A stretch of 64,000 bases of DNA from NCBI RefSeq assembly GCF_023343835.1, contig NC_064442.1:17904501-17968500 (forward strand), read 5' to 3'. A model generated the notes under the pieces. It was not told the origin of the DNA. It worked only from the letters and a program-made list of their open reading frames with translations, and made no database searches. Positions 49,612 through 63,770 of this stretch are shown piece after piece (the first letter of the stretch is position 1; each line of letters opens with the position of its first letter). A program made the translations under genes and the position numbers. This stretch comes from Lagopus muta (Eukaryota > Chordata > Aves > Galliformes > Phasianidae).

Positions 49612-52600
49612 TCACGCAGAGCTCTTGGTGGCGAAGCGCTTCTTCATCTGGAAGCACTCGCACTGCTTGTACTTCATGGTCAGCCCGTACTGAGGGGTGA
49701 TGTCCACCTGCTGGCCGGGGGCCAGGCTGATCTCCAGCTGCTGCAGGATGGTGGTCAGGAAGAGGAAGACCTCCCAGCGCCCGATGGATTCCCCGATGCA
49801 CCGCCTCTTCCCCAGGCCAAAGATCACCACCTTGTCACCCTCCATCTTGTTGATTTCGGTGCCGGATGCATTGAGGAAGCGCTCGGGCTTGAAGGAGGAA
49901 GGATCCTTCCAGATCTTCCTGCGGCAGAAGGGAGAGACCTGAGCAAGGTGCTGTGGGCAGAGGCCAAAGAAAGCTTTCGTTTCCCCATCCTAAAGCAGCG
50001 GCCCTCTGCTGAGCCTCTGTTCCTGATCCGCAGTGCCAGCTGCACGTCAGCCCCTATCAGCTCAACCCACTGAAACCTCCACTTTGAACTCTCATTGTGT
50101 TTGCCTGTGCAGATACCAGGGTTGATTGAACTGGGCTCATAATTCCAGGACGTATTTCAGCTGAAACAGGAGCACGGGAATCAGGCAGGAAGGATGGGAA
50201 CCGGAGGGATTTCTTCTCTGGCATTCTTCCTGCAAAACCTCTCCAGCCTGCCCCAGCCTAGCTGCACTGGGGGATTTCCCAGCATCTCAGCCAAGGGACT
50301 GCTGCTTGGATTTGGGGAAACACATTCCCACATAGCACAAAGCTTCTGACACCTGGTCTGGGAACCCCTTCTGCATCCATCCACCATCATGTTGCATTCA
50401 TGCACTTATAAGGATGGATCTGAGCTACACTTGTGCCTGGTGCACCTGGTTAGGAACACTTTGGTGTACTCACTCATCGTGGTTCACTTGCCACTGGTTG
50501 ACAAATACGCAGGTGTTCTTGGGGATGTAATAACCATTCAGTACAGTGTCTTTTGTTGTACTGCAAGAAAAACGGGAGGAGGAGTTGAGAGGAGACTGGC
50601 AGCTTTGTCGTGACCTCCAAAGAGACAAAATCCAAACAGTGCTTACCTATGTGGGATGGTGAAGGGCAGGAGGGAGGTGTGCCGGAACACCTCCAGGATG
50701 AAGGCTTCTGTGTAGGGCAGCATGCCTCGGTCAGACAGCCGTGGTGTCCTCTCCTGGCCGATGGTCTGATCTGTGGGGTGCAGACAGGAGGAGCTGGTTG
50801 GGGGCCAGCCCTCGGTGGAGGTCCCAGCCCTGGAGAAACAGGCTGAGGAACTCACCCAGCTCTGCCTGAATCTTCTTCTGGATGTGGGGGTACAAGGCAG
50901 CGTACAATATGCACCAAGACAGGGTGGTTGTCACGGTTTCAAAGCCTGGACAAGCACAGAAGAAAAGTGTTTAGATGGCAAAAGAAGACAGGTAGGAGGA
51001 TATTTGCAGATCCCGGCGCTCTCAGTGCTTTGGCTGATGACACGCAGCCAATATTTGCCTTGGAGCAGTTCCACCATCAGCCACCACTGCAAAGCCATCT
51101 GCTCTGAGCCCACGGTCCCTCCAAAACCCCAGGCTTCCAATCCCATCTGCCAGCAGCAGATGGGGCTGCACGCACCGAGATGCCCTCACCTGCCCCAAAG
51201 AGGTCGTTGACGATGGAGATGATGCTCTCATCAGAGGGTTGGACACGGACATCCTCCCCTGTCTTCTTCTCCTGGCAGTGCCCAATCAACGAGTCTGTGA
51301 CGTCCCGAATGTGCTCCTGGGAAGAGCCAGAGGGTCAGAGACACGAGGGCACATGGGAAGCGGAAAGCTGGAGGCAGTGAATGCCCGCAGGAAAGCAGTG
51401 AGATGATATGGTTTGAATTTTGGGGGGTCCTGCGTGGGGCCAGGAGTTGGACTTTACGATCCTTGTGGGTCCCTTCCGATTTAAGGTATTCTGTGATCCT
51501 AGGTAGGTAACAAAGCCAACCCAAAAGGTGAGGAGAACTGGGGATGTGCTAGAGAAAAACCAACAGTTCTGGGAGCCCCACCACATACTGCAAGCAGCAG
51601 AATTAGATGTGAGCCTCCTCCATGGCATCTTGGTTTCATCAGGCAGAAAGCAGAGCAAAAGCTCGAATTCTGTGCCTTCTTTCAGTGATGTTAATAAATG
51701 GGATCATGACAAAGAGAAAGAGCAGTGAGGCAAAGGAAAGGTTTGCCACAGAACGGCACCCAAGCTCTTACCTTATCAAAGGTAGTGTAATGGTTCTGGA
51801 CGATTTTCTGTATGAAGGCATCGAAACGAATGTTGACATCCTTAAAGGCAGCCATGGCACGGTTGGGGAGGTACCGGAGCAGCGGGATGAAGTCAGAGGG
51901 GTTTCCAGCAGCAGTCACATCCCCAAACTCAGTGTTCATGTTCACCACGCTGAGCAGCTCCTGGTCGTCGTGGTCGTAACGCTTGCCAAAGCAAATGGCA
52001 CAGATGACGTTGGCCACCGACACCACCAGGTAGCTGTAGGGGTCAAAGCTCTGCTTCCCCTCCATCAGCTGCAGGAATTTGGTGACCAGGTAGCTGGCCT
52101 CGGTGGTGACGTGCTCCTCCAAGAGGCAGCTGGAGGAGGCCGTGGGGCTGGCGGCGATGGAGAAGGTCTTCAGGGCGTTCTGTGCCAGCTTCCTACGGGC
52201 TTTCCAGGCATCCCCACATTCGTAGCTGAATGCCAGGCTGTGGCCATTGGAGATGTACTTAAAGCTGGGCAGGTCAGGGCGTCCCATGAAGTCTTCTGCT
52301 TGCCTCACCAAGGCTTGCCTGATGGTTTCCAGCCCGCTGAGCACCACCACGGGCCGGGAGCCGATGGTCACCTCCATCACATCCCCGTATTTGCGGCTCA
52401 TCTGGGTGAGCACCAAGTGTGGGTCCTTCCTCAGCTCCAGCACACTGCCCAGCATTGGGAGCCCACGGGGACCCGGGGGTCTGCGCAGCCCCTTGGGTGT
52501 GTGCTGCCGGCGGGTCTGGGTCAGCAGCAGGAGCAGGCAGAAAGTGGCAGCTGCCACCAGCACCTCGGTGGCCGAGATGAGACCTGAGCTGCCCACCTGT

Positions 52601-52629
52601 GCCATCGCTGCCTGCGATCCCGCTGCCAT
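49612..52629 (-). CDS. CYP1A4: CYP1A4 cytochrome P450 (avian CYP1A1 counterpart)
   Basis: An ER-membrane heme monooxygenase, induced through the aryl hydrocarbon receptor, that oxidises planar aromatic compounds. Coding exons in transcript order: 52629-51772, 51316-51190, 50945-50856, 50770-50647, 50560-50474, 49918-49612 (TGA). The total is 530 residues, the length known for chicken CYP1A4. Exon sizes after the first (127, 90, 124, 87, 307) equal those of its neighbour. The N-terminus [11 protein letters not shown] is followed by a hydrophobic anchor ([14 protein letters not shown]) and the proline hinge [10 protein letters not shown]. The I-helix AGFDT is at 328-332, ExxR at 385-388 and the heme loop [11 protein letters not shown] has Cys469. 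The C-terminus [15 protein letters not shown] is CYP1A4-like. All introns are GT-AG. Met9 is an alternative start; the first ATG matches the known protein. Confidence 0.95.
51421..51501 (+). repeat. CR1 3'-end fragment in a CYP1A4 intron
   Basis: GGCCAGGAGTTGGACTTTAC, GATCCTTGTGGGTCCCTTCC and GGTATTCTGTGATCC match the CR1 3' end; it lies antisense to the gene between its first two coding exons. Confidence 0.8.
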
Positions 52630-52798
52630 CTGGAAGTGAACCTGGAGGGGAGAAAGCGCTGATGAAGAGGAGGGTCCTCCACCAGATATTGGGGTTTGAG
52701 ATTGTGGGTGACCCCACGCAAGCCACCGGGACCCCCTCGCTGCCCAGAAGCAATGGCTGCAGGTGGGATGCTGGAGGGTTGGGGATGGGAACGCTCAC

Positions 52799-52842
52799 CT
52801 CTGGGTGCTGCTGTCCCACGAGGGCCCGATCCTGCCACCAGG
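52799..52842 (-). other. CYP1A4: CYP1A4 non-coding exon 1
   Basis: The leader starts about 25-30 bp downstream of the TATA box and ends at a strong donor (CCCAGAG before GTGAGC) at 52798-52797. It joins an acceptor just before the ATG: CTCCAG then either a 12-nt leader from 52641, or the ATG itself via a second AG. CYP1A genes usually have a non-coding first exon. Confidence 0.65.
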
Positions 52843-52866
52843 TACCCGCTGTCCCTCCGAGCCTGC

Positions 52867-52872
52867 TTTATA
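52867..52872 (-). promoter_or_regulatory. CYP1A4: CYP1A4 TATA box
   Basis: TATAAA on the minus strand, in the context ATGCATATAAAGC. The same 13 bases surround the CYP1A5 TATA box. Confidence 0.8.
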
Positions 52873-54739
52873 TGCATCGCCTCCCGCTGCCGTTGGCCGG
52901 GACACCTCCCATCACGTGACCCAAAGTTGAACTGCGGCCAAACTTTTGAACACCCCCCACCTCTCCCCGCCGGTCCCCCACCAACCTCCCCGGTAGCCCT
53001 CCTGGTTTTGCGGGGTGGACACCTGCGGGGAGCCCCGACGGGGCGGGGGGGTGCCGAGGTGGCACGGCGCGGAGGGCGTTCGCGGCGCCACGAGCGGTTG
53101 CCGGGACATCGGGCGGGGGATCCGGAGGTCCCGTGAGGAAGGCTGTGGGGGGACATCGCGTGCGAAGCGGGCGGGAGGTTTGGGAACCTGCACCGCCCCG
53201 GTCCCTGCAGTCACGCTACCGGGGAGGTTCTTAAAGGAGCCGCAGCCCCACGCGGCTCCGCGAACACGCGGGGGGCGGCTGCAGCCCCCTCGTCACGCTG
53301 AGCTCCCCGCTGCCGCCCGAGCCGCCCCGAGGTGGGGATCTCGGATCTCAGCCCCTTCCCCACTCTTTGCCCTCGGGGCTGGACGCCTGGCCGCCCCACG
53401 GGACTCACGTCGCGGGGCTCCCGTCCCGGTTAAATATTGGCCAGGTTCGCGTGAGAAGCGATCGTGCCCTCAGTGCCCCTCTGCCCCCAGGGGGCACGTC
53501 GGGGTGAGGGGGGAGGTGGCGAGTGAACAGCACGGGGCAGCGAGGAGGAGAGAGCTGCTATTTGGGGGGGGGACACAAAGGGGACCCACCCCCAGGCGCT
53601 TGGGGACATCGCGTGCGAAGGGGCCAGGAACAACGTGGGACGGTCACTCTCTGTCACGCTATGGGTGTGTGGGTGGGAAATGGCTTTTAAAGGGCCAGGG
53701 CGGTGGCCCCACGTCCACGAGCCCGTCCCGGGGTCAGGGCGGCGCCGGGACCTTGCGGGATCAGATCCCCCCCCGGCGCCGTCGGGGGTAACGGGGCTCG
53801 GTGCCAGGCGTGTCCCCAGGGCAAAGCGGGGCTCAGCAGTGCCTCCGCGTGTGTCTCTGCTTAGGGATGACACGGTGGCAGGGTCCGGCGACAGCCGTGC
53901 AGCCGTCCCCTACAAGCAGCCTCGGAGCTGCTCGCCCCGTCTGTGCATCCATCCAGTCATACCCTCTCCACCCTCCCCTCCCCCCCCAACCTTCTCAGCA
54001 CTTCCCGTCTGTCTGAGCTCATCTGCCGTGTGCTGACCGGCACCTTCCCCACGCGGAGCTGGGAGGCATCTGCGGGCTGGGACGCCTGCGTGGTGCCCGT
54101 CATTAGCGCGTGCAATTACGGGGCCGGCTTTTATCAGCGGGGATTTTGTAACTGTTCTTGCCAAGCATTAATGAGCCCAGGCACTGCTATTAACGATCCC
54201 GCTCGAGCCAGATGTTGAAAGCCTTTATTAAACATTAGCTCGGCTTGTACCTGGGCAAAATTCCCACCGTGCTTTCCAAGGAACGGATGAAAACTGGGGC
54301 CAAATTGTATCCCATCTCATCAGCCTCCCTGCTGCCCTGAGCACTTGTGCATCGCACCGAGGAGGGATGCAGTGTGTCCCCATCGGGGCACGCAGGGGGA
54401 CGAGCCCTCTGGGATGCCCCCAGCCTTGCCCCTGTCCCCTGCCCTATGTCAGCAGCTCCCCCTGCCCTGCCACTCCTCTCCCTGCAGCAGGGGAAGCGCG
54501 CCAGCCACTTCTCACGCAACCCTGGCCAATGGTTAACCCGAGGCCAGAGGTCCTGCCACTGATAGCGTGGGGATACAGGTGCCCCATTTGAAAGGCTAGT
54601 GCCCTGGAGCATCTCAGAGCCGGAGGGCGTATGCCTGCGTATCTAGAGTGGCTCCAGATGGGATCAGCCCCTCTGTTAATAGGTAGTCGCTCGTTGGGTC
54701 TTGGCTGCTGTGACCCTCAGATAAGCACCCAAAAATGCA
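52873..54739. promoter_or_regulatory. Shared CYP1A4/CYP1A5 intergenic region with XRE (AhR) motifs
   Basis: About 1.9 kb between the two TATA boxes. Five sites match the full XRE consensus (T/G)NGCGTG(A/C)(G/C)A: 53156-53165, 53447-53456 and 53609-53618 on plus, and 53652-53661 and 54510-54519 on minus. Another near-match is at 53209-53218 (minus), and further GCGTG cores occur near 53249, 53266, 53809, 53847, 54051, 54090, 54108 and 54576. A CACGTG E-box is at 52913-52918. The part 52950-53800 is CpG-rich. The open frames here (for example 53015-53791) have no resemblance to proteins. Confidence 0.75.
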
Positions 54740-54745
54740 TATAAA
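54740..54745 (+). promoter_or_regulatory. CYP1A5: CYP1A5 TATA box
   Basis: TATAAA in the context ATGCATATAAAGC, identical to the CYP1A4 core promoter on the other strand; it is placed about 30 bp before the inferred start of exon 1. Confidence 0.8.
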
Positions 54746-54769
54746 GCCCCGTGGCAGAGCTAAGAAGCA

Positions 54770-54844
54770 GGGGAAGAGGATCCTGCGTGGTTCCTGGCTC
54801 TGAGTGCCCTCTGCCTGTCTCTGCCCAGCTTCAAGGACCTGCAG
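54770..54844 (+). other. CYP1A5: CYP1A5 non-coding exon 1
   Basis: Runs from about 30 bp after the TATA box to a strong donor (CTGCAG before GTAGGA) at 54845. It joins the acceptor TTCCAG at 55013, six bases before the ATG. The 5' end is inferred. Confidence 0.65.
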
Positions 54845-55019
54845 GTAGGAATGTATGCATGTGGCTCTGAACACAGAGGTAGGATCGAGAAGGTATTTAT
54901 GTCAGCATAAGAAATTCACGGAATGTCTCTGCCATCCCTCTCTTTCTCTACACTCTCTGCTCTGTTTAAAATAACTTTTTCAAACCCTAACTCTACACCA
55001 CGCTTCCTTCCAGGTGGCA

Positions 55020-57599
55020 ATGGGGCCAGAGGAAGTGATGGCACAGGTGGGCAGCTCAGGTCTCATCTTGGCCACCGAGGTGCTGGTGGCAGCTGCCACT
55101 TTCTGCCTGCTCCTGCTGCTGACCCAGACCCACCGGCAGCACACACCCAAGGGGCTGCGCAGACCCCCGGGTCCCCGTGGGCTCCCAATGCTGGGCAGTG
55201 TGCTGGAGCTGAGGAAGGACCCACACCTGGTGCTCACCCAGATGAGCCGCAAATACGGGGATGTGATGGAGGTGACCATCGGCTCCCGGCCCGTGGTGGT
55301 GCTCAGCGGGTTGGAAACCATCAGGCAAGCCTTGGTGAGGCAAGCAGAAGACTTCATGGGACGCCCTGACCTCTACAGCTTCCGACACATTACGGATGGA
55401 CAGAGCCTGACCTTCAGCACTGACACGGGGGAAATGTGGAGAGCCCGTAGGAAGCTGGCACAGAACGCCCTAAAGACCTTCTCCATCGCCGCCAGCCCCA
55501 CGGCCTCCTCCAGCTGCCTCTTGGAGGAACACGTCACCAGCGAGGCCAGCTACCTGGTCACCAAATTCCTGCAGCTGATGGAGGAGAAGCAGAGCTTTGA
55601 CCCCTACCGCTACATGGTGGTGTCGGTGGCCAATGTCATCTGTGCCATTTGCTTTGGCAAGCGTTACGACCACGATGACCAGGAGCTGCTCAACGTGGTG
55701 AACGTGGTGGATGAGTTTGTGGATGTGACTGCTGTTGGCAACCCAGCTGACTTCATCCCGCTGCTCCGGTACCTCCCCAGTCGCAACATGGATTTATTTC
55801 TGGATTTCAACAAGCGATTCATGAAATTGTTGAAGACAGCTGTGGAAGAGCACTACCAGACTTTTGACAAGGTAAGAGCTCACAGGAGCCTCACCTGCTG
55901 TTCCCCCTTGGTATCAGTGAGTTACTTGTGCTCTTGCTGCTAATGGCCAGCTCATTTTCATAGACTGTAAAGTCAGTAGGGCTGTAGAGTGTTGGAGGGC
56001 GGACACCCTTGCTCATACCACCATGGGTTCTTACAGCAAGTCAGCATCACTTGTCTCTTCTTCTCAGAACAACATCCGAGATGTCACCGACTCCCTCATT
56101 GAGCAGTGCATGGAGAAAAAAGCCGAAGCCAACAGTGCCACACAGATCCCAAATGAGAAGATCATCAACCTGGTGAATGACATCTTTGGAGCAGGTATGT
56201 CTTCCCAGCGCTCCCTCAGCTCCTGCAGCTTGTCTCAGGCTCCTCACTCCTCCTTGTCCAACCCCAGGCAGCCAGGCTGGAGCTAAGCACCCACCTGGCT
56301 CTCTGGTTTTCTCCCAGTAACCCAGAGACCCCATGGGACATCAGCTCTGGAAAGAGGCTTTAGGAAGAAGCACAGAGCACAGTTTGTAGCTTGATCAAGC
56401 TTCCAAGCCAGGGTGGTTGAAGGAGGTGCCTGCTGACTGGTTCATGCTAGAGCAGCCCTGTGGAAACTCCCTCGATTCCCAGGAAGCTAGAATCTTAGCC
56501 CAACCTGATGTAAACAAGGGGTAGACAGAGAGGAATGAGAACTGAAGTTTTTAGTAAAGCTTTCTCCATCAGGATAAAAGTCCGAGCCCTACTGTGTGCG
56601 CCTAGGATGTCCTCTGCCCTGCACATTGTGTAGACCTGGTCCGCTCTCTGTCTAGGCTTTGACACTGTGACAACTGCCCTGTCCTGGAGCCTCATGTACC
56701 TCGTGACGTATCCCCACATCCAGAAGAAGATTCAGGCAGAGCTGGGTGAGTTCCTCAGCCCGTTTCTCCAGGGCTGGGACCTCCACCGAGGGCTGGCCCC
56801 CAACCAGCTCCTCCTGTCCGCACCCCACAGATCAGACCATCGGCCGGGAGAGGACACCACGGCTGTCTGACCGAGGCATGCTGCCCTACACAGAAGCCTT
56901 CATCCTGGAGGTGTTCCGGCACACCTCCTTCATACCCTTCACCATCCCACACAGGCAAGTGCTGGGCTTTCAAAGAGGAGGGAGGGTCAAGCTGGTCTTA
57001 ATGAAGTCCGCTGAGGATGCAGAAGAGCCTCTTTGCTTCCCAAAACCTCACAGTCCTCTCTCCTCCCACCAGCACGACCAGAGACACGGTGCTGAATGGC
57101 TACTATATCCCAAAGGACCGCTGCGTGTTTATCAACCAGTGGCAAGTGAATCACGATGAGTGAGTACCTTCAAGGGCAGGAAGCCTCCTGCTCTGGGAGA
57201 AAAAGGAGCAGATGAGGTATCTGCTGAACCCAGTGTCCCCTGCATCCGTGGCCAGGGGACATCATCTCAAAATCTGATGTCTGCCATTGTAGGAAACTTT
57301 GGAAGGATCCACAGGCTTTCAACCCAGAGCGTTTCCTCAATGCTGAAGGGACTGAACTGAACAAAGTGGATGCGGAGAAGGTGATGACTTTTGGCCTGGG
57401 GAAAAGGAGGTGCATTGGGGAAAACATAGGCAAGTGGGAGGTGTTCCTTTTCCTGTCCACGTTGCTCCAGCAACTGGAGTTCAGCATCCGCGATGGCAAG
57501 AAGGCAGACATGACACCTATATATGGACTGTCCATCAAGCACAAGAGATGTGAGCACTTTCAAGTCAAGAAACGCTTCTCCATGAAGAGCTCAAACTGA
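55020..57599 (+). CDS. CYP1A5: CYP1A5 cytochrome P450 (avian CYP1A2 counterpart)
   Basis: An AhR-inducible microsomal monooxygenase, paralogue of the divergent neighbour. Coding exons: 55020-55871, 56068-56194, 56656-56745, 56831-56954, 57073-57159, 57293-57599 (TGA). They give 528 residues, the known length of chicken CYP1A5. The start MGPEEVMAQ matches the avian protein. It shows the hydrophobic anchor [14 protein letters not shown], hinge [11 protein letters not shown]-helix AGFDT, ExxR at 383-386 and heme loop [11 protein letters not shown] with Cys467. The C-terminus is [19 protein letters not shown]. The intron after exon 56831-56954 begins GCAAGT rather than GT; using it gives the same 124-nt exon as in CYP1A4. 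Long parts of exon 2 and the exon 4-5 region are nearly identical to CYP1A4. Confidence 0.95.
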
Positions 57600-63136: not shown

Positions 63137-63770
63137 GTGGAGATTTGCCCACTGGGGGTGGAGATCTGTCTGTTGGAGATGGAGATCTGTCCATTGGGGA
63201 TGGAGATCTGTCCATTGGGCACGGAGATCTGTCTATTGGGGATGGAGATCTATCCATTGGGGATGGAGATCTGTCCATTGGGCATGGAGATCTGTCCATT
63301 GGGGATGGAGATCTGTCCATTGGGGATGGAGATCTGTCCATTGGGCACGGAGATCTGTCTATTGGGGATGGAGATCTATCCATTGGGGATGGAGATCTGT
63401 CCATTGGGCATGGAGATCTGTCTATTGGGGATGGAGATCTGTCCATTGGGGATGGAGATCTGCCCACTGGGGATTGAGATCTGTCCGCTGGGGAGGCAGG
63501 GGTTGGAGGTGCATCCACTGGAAATGGAGATGTGCCCATTGGGAACAGGAGGTGTGTCCATTGGGGATGGGAGATCTGTCCGTTGGGGATGGGAGGTGTG
63601 TCTGTTTGGGGAGAGGAGGTGCATCCATTGGGGACAGGAGGTCCATCCACTGGGGATGGAGATTTGTCCATTGGGGGTGGAGATCTGTCCACTGGGGACG
63701 GTAGGTGCATCCACTGGGAATGGGAGATGCATCCACTGGGGACAGAAGTCTGTTGGGGATGGAGTTTGAA
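63137..63770 (+). repeat. 21-bp minisatellite with higher-order structure
   Basis: The unit ATTGGGGATGGAGATCTGTCC (21 bases, positions vary) repeats about 16 times with few changes in 63137-63480. It then continues in a decayed, length-variable form to about 63770. Within the regular part, variants recur every three units (63 bp) and every six units (126 bp; for example the GGGCACGG variant at 63217 and 63343). Nearly every unit carries AGATCT. All frames stay open because 21 is a multiple of three. Confidence 0.95.

Follow-up and report, generated by a model that had tools for sequence, protein, structure and literature searches.

How can two neighbouring P450 genes be almost identical over most of an exon and yet differ sharply over 70 bp within it? 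CYP1A4 and CYP1A5 of Lagopus muta raise this question. The pair lies in a stretch of 64,000 nucleotides (contig NC_064442.1, positions 17,904,501 to 17,968,500 of the forward strand; hereafter the window), whose first-noted feature was a mosaic of similar and dissimilar DNA in exon 2.

The gene pair and the mosaic of exon 2

CYP1A4 (minus strand) and CYP1A5 (plus strand) form an inverted, head-to-head pair of intact genes with about 2.4 kb between their shared ATGs, and their open frames and splice sites give 522 amino acids each from the shared ATG (Table 1). Both belong to the P450 family: Pfam p450 (PF00067) matches exon 2 and a piece of exon 7 of CYP1A5 as well as exon 2 of CYP1A4, and the nearest solved relatives, queried with a piece of CYP1A5 exon 2 and with the whole of CYP1A4, are CYP1A1 (4i8v) and CYP1A2 (2hi4). 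The two proteins are 78.7% identical; PMC3709703 gives 79% for the chicken pair. A search of the bird's own genome with exon 2 DNA returned the CYP1A4 and CYP1A5 loci only, and among the 8 and 64 pattern-matching stretches in the viral and prokaryote genome collections, respectively, none encodes a relative of the protein. Past the 3′ end of CYP1A4, at about 45.6-46.0 kb, lies an N-terminal exon of EDC3 (match to chain 2vc8), which neighbours CYP1A1 in human as well. In both genes an in-frame ATG lies upstream of the shared one, at 55020 in CYP1A5 (6 codons) and at 52629 in CYP1A4 (8 codons). Because the two leaders are unlike in length and sequence, high identity begins almost at the shared ATG.

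Table 1. Coordinates in the window of the CYP1A4 and CYP1A5 exons and of the blocks compared between them
Feature	Position (strand)	Partner in CYP1A4	Codons	Remarks
CYP1A5 exon 2	55038..55871 (+)		278, from the ATG shared with CYP1A4	open frame, splice sites
CYP1A5 further exons	56068-56194, 56656-56745, 56831-56954, 57073-57159, 57293-57599 (+)			open frame, splice sites
CYP1A4 exon 2	51772..52605 (-)		278	open frame, splice sites
CYP1A4 further exons	51316-51190, 50945-50856, 50770-50647, 50560-50474, 49918-49612 (-)			open frame, splice sites
Converted block B1	55038..55372 (+)	52605-52271	1-111	4/335 differences; pS 0.023
Divergent island	55373..55442 (+)	52270-52201	112-135	SRS1 and rest of B-C region; 28/70 differences
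Converted block B2	55443..55703 (+)	52200-51940	137-222	9/261 differences; pS 0.069
Small SRS2 island	55704..55721 (+)	51939-51922	223-228	4/6 codons replaced; 7/18 nt differ
Block B3	55722..55778 (+)	51921-51865	229-247	4/57 differences; pS 2.0/16.0 (0.125), pN 2.0/41.0
Second converted tract T2	56712..56951 (+)	50889-50650		end of exon 4, intron 4, most of exon 5; 6/240 differences
SRS5 codons (F/L, I/L)	56929..56934 (+)	50672-50667	384-385	human CYP1A1 residues 381-382; 3/6 nt differ, both codons replaced

The locus has several further features. The donor of CYP1A5 intron 5 is GC (CAG/GCAAGT, 56955-56956) and its CYP1A4 counterpart GT, and third-position GC in exon 7 is 0.90 in CYP1A4 (49918-49612) and 0.66 in CYP1A5 (57293-57599). 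The sequence TNGCGTG, which we take to be an AHR-response-like motif, matches 18 times in the window, a total that 24 of 100 shuffles also attain and that does not exceed chance, and eight of these matches fall between the two genes, at 52606-55037. A minisatellite with units of about 21 bp occupies 63138-63698, with 17 copies within 63138-63494. Elsewhere in the genome, at about 5.865 Mb of C9 (L018 606-1365), a CYP1C1-like exon is split over two reading frames and carries an in-frame stop, so that, barring an assembly error, CYP1C has the look of a pseudogene in this bird. For CYP1C, PMC3786927 describes an intact chicken copy, with stop codons in the copies of turkey and zebra finch.

Exon 2 of the two genes was compared without gaps over 666 bp, 55038-55703 (+) against 52605-51940 (-). 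The 41 mismatches in this alignment number 4, 28 and 9 in its consecutive parts of 335, 70 and 261 bp, very nearly the 4, 29 and 9 that an earlier note on this DNA had estimated by hand. All 28 differences of the island fall within 69 bp (55373-55441), with 61 identical bases before them and 30 after, and the densest 70-bp window of 20,000 shuffles of the 41 differences over 666 bp held at most 16. The differing codons are 112-135 from the shared ATG at 55038, or 118-141 from the upstream ATG at 55020; the latter numbering accounts for the residues of about 118-143 given in the note. Downstream, the low divergence of block B3 perhaps reflects older or partial conversion. In a genomic alignment, identity climbs just upstream of the shared ATG and drops inside exon 2, then climbs again in exon 4 and drops at the end of exon 5; this global alignment mispaired exon 3, which was compared by codons instead.

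Gene conversion in exon 2 and beyond

The silent sites carry the case for gene conversion. Specifically, silent divergence lies between 0 and 0.07 in B1, B2 and T2 and reaches 0.61-0.65 in the island, in codons 248-338 (pS 0.653) and in codons 391-522 (pS 0.612). The synonymous rate is therefore far from uniform along exon 2, with pS of 0.023 in B1, 0.63 in the island and 0.069 in B2. The island (codons 112-136; pS 0.630, pN 0.31) has a bootstrap range for pS of 0.35-0.92, which does not overlap the 0.016-0.145 of B2. Because protein constraint cannot yield low silent divergence beside high, conversion is the best reading of B1, B2 and T2. In line with this, silent sites and intron 4 are homogenised in sharp-edged blocks, the pattern by which interlocus conversion is recognised. 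The proposal that gene conversion had homogenised the flanks thus holds, as silent sites are nearly identical in the flanks and near saturation in the island, and the orthologue tree is rejected in the flanks. Judged from these patterns, B1 and B2 were evidently converted recently between CYP1A4 and CYP1A5.

The conversion pattern is wider than the exon 2 mosaic first noted, since T2 and the differences in SRS2 and SRS5 (SRS, substrate recognition site) add to it. Of the six differences in T2, codons 384-385 account for three, codon 356 for one and the 85 bp of intron 4 for two, and pS is 0/35.8 in codons 341-390 without codons 384-385. Intron 5 is unequal in length (118 and 86 bp) and has no identity like that of intron 4. 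To judge by their silent sites, codons 248-338 and 391-522 appear free of recent conversion.

Quartet tests of the bird CYP1A4 and CYP1A5 proteins with human CYP1A1 and CYP1A2, expressed as AU values, reject the orthologue tree in B1 (codons 35-111; 1.6e-5), B2 (1.0e-4) and T2 (0.001), so that the flanks group by species when compared with the human proteins. For the island, the bird-paralogue tree is preferred (0.906) but the orthologue tree is not rejected (0.113), with two sites for orthology and one for the paralogue tree. This quartet is a poor judge, because PMC3199271 places human SRS1 itself inside DNA converted between human and mouse. The motif ISNG, found in CYP1A4 and human CYP1A1, and a 12-residue motif of CYP1A5 and human CYP1A2 had been considered as a sign of kept orthology, a reading that the island quartet failed to support. 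The island together with the SRS2 and SRS3 codons, a set chosen post hoc, gives 0.763 for the orthologue tree against 0.275.

In the remaining exons, codons 248-338 only lean towards the orthologue tree (0.714 against 0.405), and the quartet for exon 3 alone, with the human proteins, separates neither tree. The orthologue tree is rejected in codons 392-515 of exons 6-7 (AU 0.002), and codons 223-340 and 392-515 together prefer the paralogue tree (orthologue AU 0.031). In codons 392-515, silent sites are saturated, yet the bird paralogues group against human CYP1A1 and CYP1A2. Exons 6-7 may reflect an older conversion, in either lineage, or another duplication history. Additionally, we compared 14 primers that the literature gives for named genes of chicken, quail and duck: the orthologue was closer for 13, one was a tie and the paralogue was closer for none, a comparison biased by the fact that primers are usually designed to discriminate. 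All 14 begin at codon 258 or beyond, one overlapping the end of T2 (codon 387), and among the primers found in the main texts consulted none lies within the exon 2 flanks. Two further duck primers, labelled CYP1A1 in their source, fit CYP1A4 better.

The island and the substrate recognition sites

What, then, is the island? It holds 13 replacements in 24 codons, with dN 0.395, dS 1.377 and dN/dS of about 0.29, so that a ratio above 1, looked for as a sign of positive selection at SRS1, was not found in it. Its silent divergence resembles that of exons 6-7 (Fisher test on rounded counts, p 0.78), and its replacement divergence resembles that of exon 3 with the end of exon 2 (p 0.87) and exceeds that of exons 6-7 (p 0.03). 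The island is much older than its flanks. Since its pS equals that of codons free of recent conversion, it is best seen as leftover divergence between old paralogues and not as fast new replacement. The emphasis shifts from a difference driven by selection to an old remnant, with selection kept as a possible reason for its sparing.

The SRS ranges were taken from human CYP1A1, for which PMC5220472 gives residues 106-124, 217-228, 251-262, 309-324 and 381-386; SRS6, for which that text gives no range, was left out. By alignment to 4i8v, with Arg106 and Phe224 from the literature as anchors, the codon number is the residue number plus 3. The earlier note had assigned SRS1 to the island, which stands as an overlap (published SRS1, codons 109-127; island, codons 112-135) but not as a full description: the island runs 8 codons 3′ of SRS1, and 7 of its 13 replacements fall inside SRS1 and 6 just 3′ of it. 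Replaced codons number 7/19 in SRS1, 4/12 in SRS2, 7/12 in SRS3, 4/16 in SRS4 and 2/6 in SRS5.

Across the low-divergence codons 1-247 and 341-390, replacements hit 13 of 37 SRS codons against 16 of 260 others, and random placement of three intervals of the SRS lengths reaches 13 at p about 0.009. With the island excluded, SRS2 and SRS5 keep 6/18 against 10/254 for other codons (p about 0.006). These placement p values are approximate, as the choice of regions followed inspection of the data and SRS2 lies on the margin of the converted DNA. With the same reservation about post hoc regions, the SRS enrichment means that the divergence peak falls on functional sites. SRS2 and the two SRS5 codons carry replacements with almost no silent change, albeit over few sites, and B2 holds five replacements outside any SRS.

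PMC6083639 describes five residue pairs assayed for the specificity of human CYP1A1 and CYP1A2. At these five sites CYP1A4/CYP1A5 read A/T, N/V, G/V, N/N and L/I, four of the five differing, and Gly/Val at 225/227 exactly repeats the human CYP1A1/CYP1A2 difference. The small SRS2 island covers the equivalents of human 1A1/1A2 221/223 and 225/227. Functional divergence of the pair is documented in chicken, where, according to PMC3709703, 3′-OH-T-2 is a product of CYP1A5 only and not of CYP1A4; the chicken paralogues are therefore functionally different.

Probable selective sparing, its rivals and known systems

We favour, with a probability of roughly 0.7, the reading that conversion homogenised most of exon 2 and a stretch running from the last part of exon 4 into exon 5, and that selection on substrate sites spared the islands. 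CYP1A4 and CYP1A5 would be old head-to-head paralogues that convert from time to time. In a fairly recent conversion, one gene would have been copied onto the other over these regions, while the 70-bp SRS1/B-C stretch escaped and retained its old silent and replacement divergence. Converted alleles that equalised both substrate pockets were probably lost to selection, and the surviving tracts would be those that stop short of the SRS1, SRS2/3 and SRS5 codons. Several conversion events would have been involved. The sparing is probably due to selection, each enzyme needing its own pocket, and the spared differences would alter substrate choice. The case for selection rests on the replacements also found in SRS2 and SRS5, through the placement values given above, both overall and without the island. 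Against it stand a dN/dS below 1, the 6 of 13 island replacements outside SRS1, the B2 replacements outside SRSs and the preference of the island quartet for the bird-paralogue tree.

The same dN/dS below 1 is consistent with a patchwork that arose without selection, in which at least two tracts ended by chance at the sides of the island or one tract was discontinuously repaired. The difference in divergence between B1 and B2 is not significant (Fisher p 0.088), which makes a single discontinuous event possible. We regard such a neutral origin as unlikely, because replacements in SRS1, SRS2 and SRS5 exceed random placement and because SRS2 and the two SRS5 codons changed almost without silent substitution, few as these sites are. 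A mechanical barrier, in which heteroduplex cannot form across an island of 40% divergence so that conversion started in the flanks halts at its edges, would suit the sharp edges with their runs of identical bases. It leaves unexplained how the island first diverged and how a two-codon SRS5 difference persists inside a 240-bp near-identical tract, and we consider it rather improbable.

Conversion of the whole tract followed by fast positive selection at SRS1 would accommodate the many replacements in the island, but its pS matches that of codons without recent conversion and 4 of the 19 SRS1 codons differ only silently. The silent sites largely rule it out, and we give it hardly any weight. 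Slighter still is the chance that one of the two genes received its island from a third (CYP1B1, CYP1C1 or another P450): CYP1B1 residues are shared by 11/23 positions of the CYP1A4 island against 9/23 of the CYP1A5 island, yet at the DNA level CYP1B1 matches 37/69 island bases of CYP1A4 and 40/69 of CYP1A5. A 90-bp DNA query around each island matches only itself across the whole genome at E up to 10, and a third-gene donor was rejected.

The sparing of substrate sites has a precedent in birds. For chicken CYP1A4/CYP1A5, Goldstone and Stegeman (J Mol Evol 62:708) reportedly described in 2006 that conversion homogenised most of the pair and spared about 250 bp with two SRSs and a raised dN/dS, attributed to selection. 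The locus of Lagopus muta is like this case in its gene pair, its homogenising conversion and its unconverted SRS-bearing stretch, and unlike it in the separate 70-bp SRS1 island with dN/dS of about 0.29, in exons 6-7 without recent conversion and in a second tract that leaves out two SRS5 codons. That 2006 work on conversion and positive selection in the chicken pair is cited in PMC3229566, PMC3786927 and PMC3199271. In a literature search that did not cover the 2006 text itself, no earlier mention of a separate SRS1 island of 70 bp was found. Conversion of bird CYP1A genes that spares an SRS-bearing stretch is thus already in print, to which the 70-bp island at SRS1 adds a new instance or a refinement.

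In mammals, PMC3199271 reports that conversion of CYP1A1 and CYP1A2 in human and mouse covers the initial 500 bp of exon 2 and exon 5 in full, and its authors likewise propose that conversion-poor regions are under selection for distinct specificities. The same two exons are converted in the bird pair; however, the mammalian converted regions, in 150-bp windows, are reported to include SRS1 and SRS5, whereas the bird tracts leave out SRS1 and two codons of SRS5. Conversion-selection theory, as given in PMC3924837, predicts divergence peaks, and the red/green opsins show one, at exon 5. The opsins are alike in being a converting pair with low-divergence flanks and a peak at functional sites; they are unrelated genes compared between human and macaque, whereas the bird case comes from one genome.

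According to PMC3709703, more work is needed on which residues underlie the metabolic difference between the chicken enzymes CYP1A4 and CYP1A5. The mosaic supplies a shortlist of candidates for specificity, with roughly 24 codons around SRS1 plus four codons of SRS2 and two of SRS5, and it means that trees built on the whole of exon 2 can misplace avian CYP1A genes. Taken together, we tentatively propose, as an idea that may well prove wrong, that conversion acts as a natural screen in which mainly positions that must differ survive, so that the differing residues of SRS1 and the B-C region, SRS2 and the two SRS5 codons would map the specificity of avian CYP1A4 and CYP1A5 nearly one residue at a time. 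On this idea, conversions that arose independently elsewhere among birds would have left these sites untouched.
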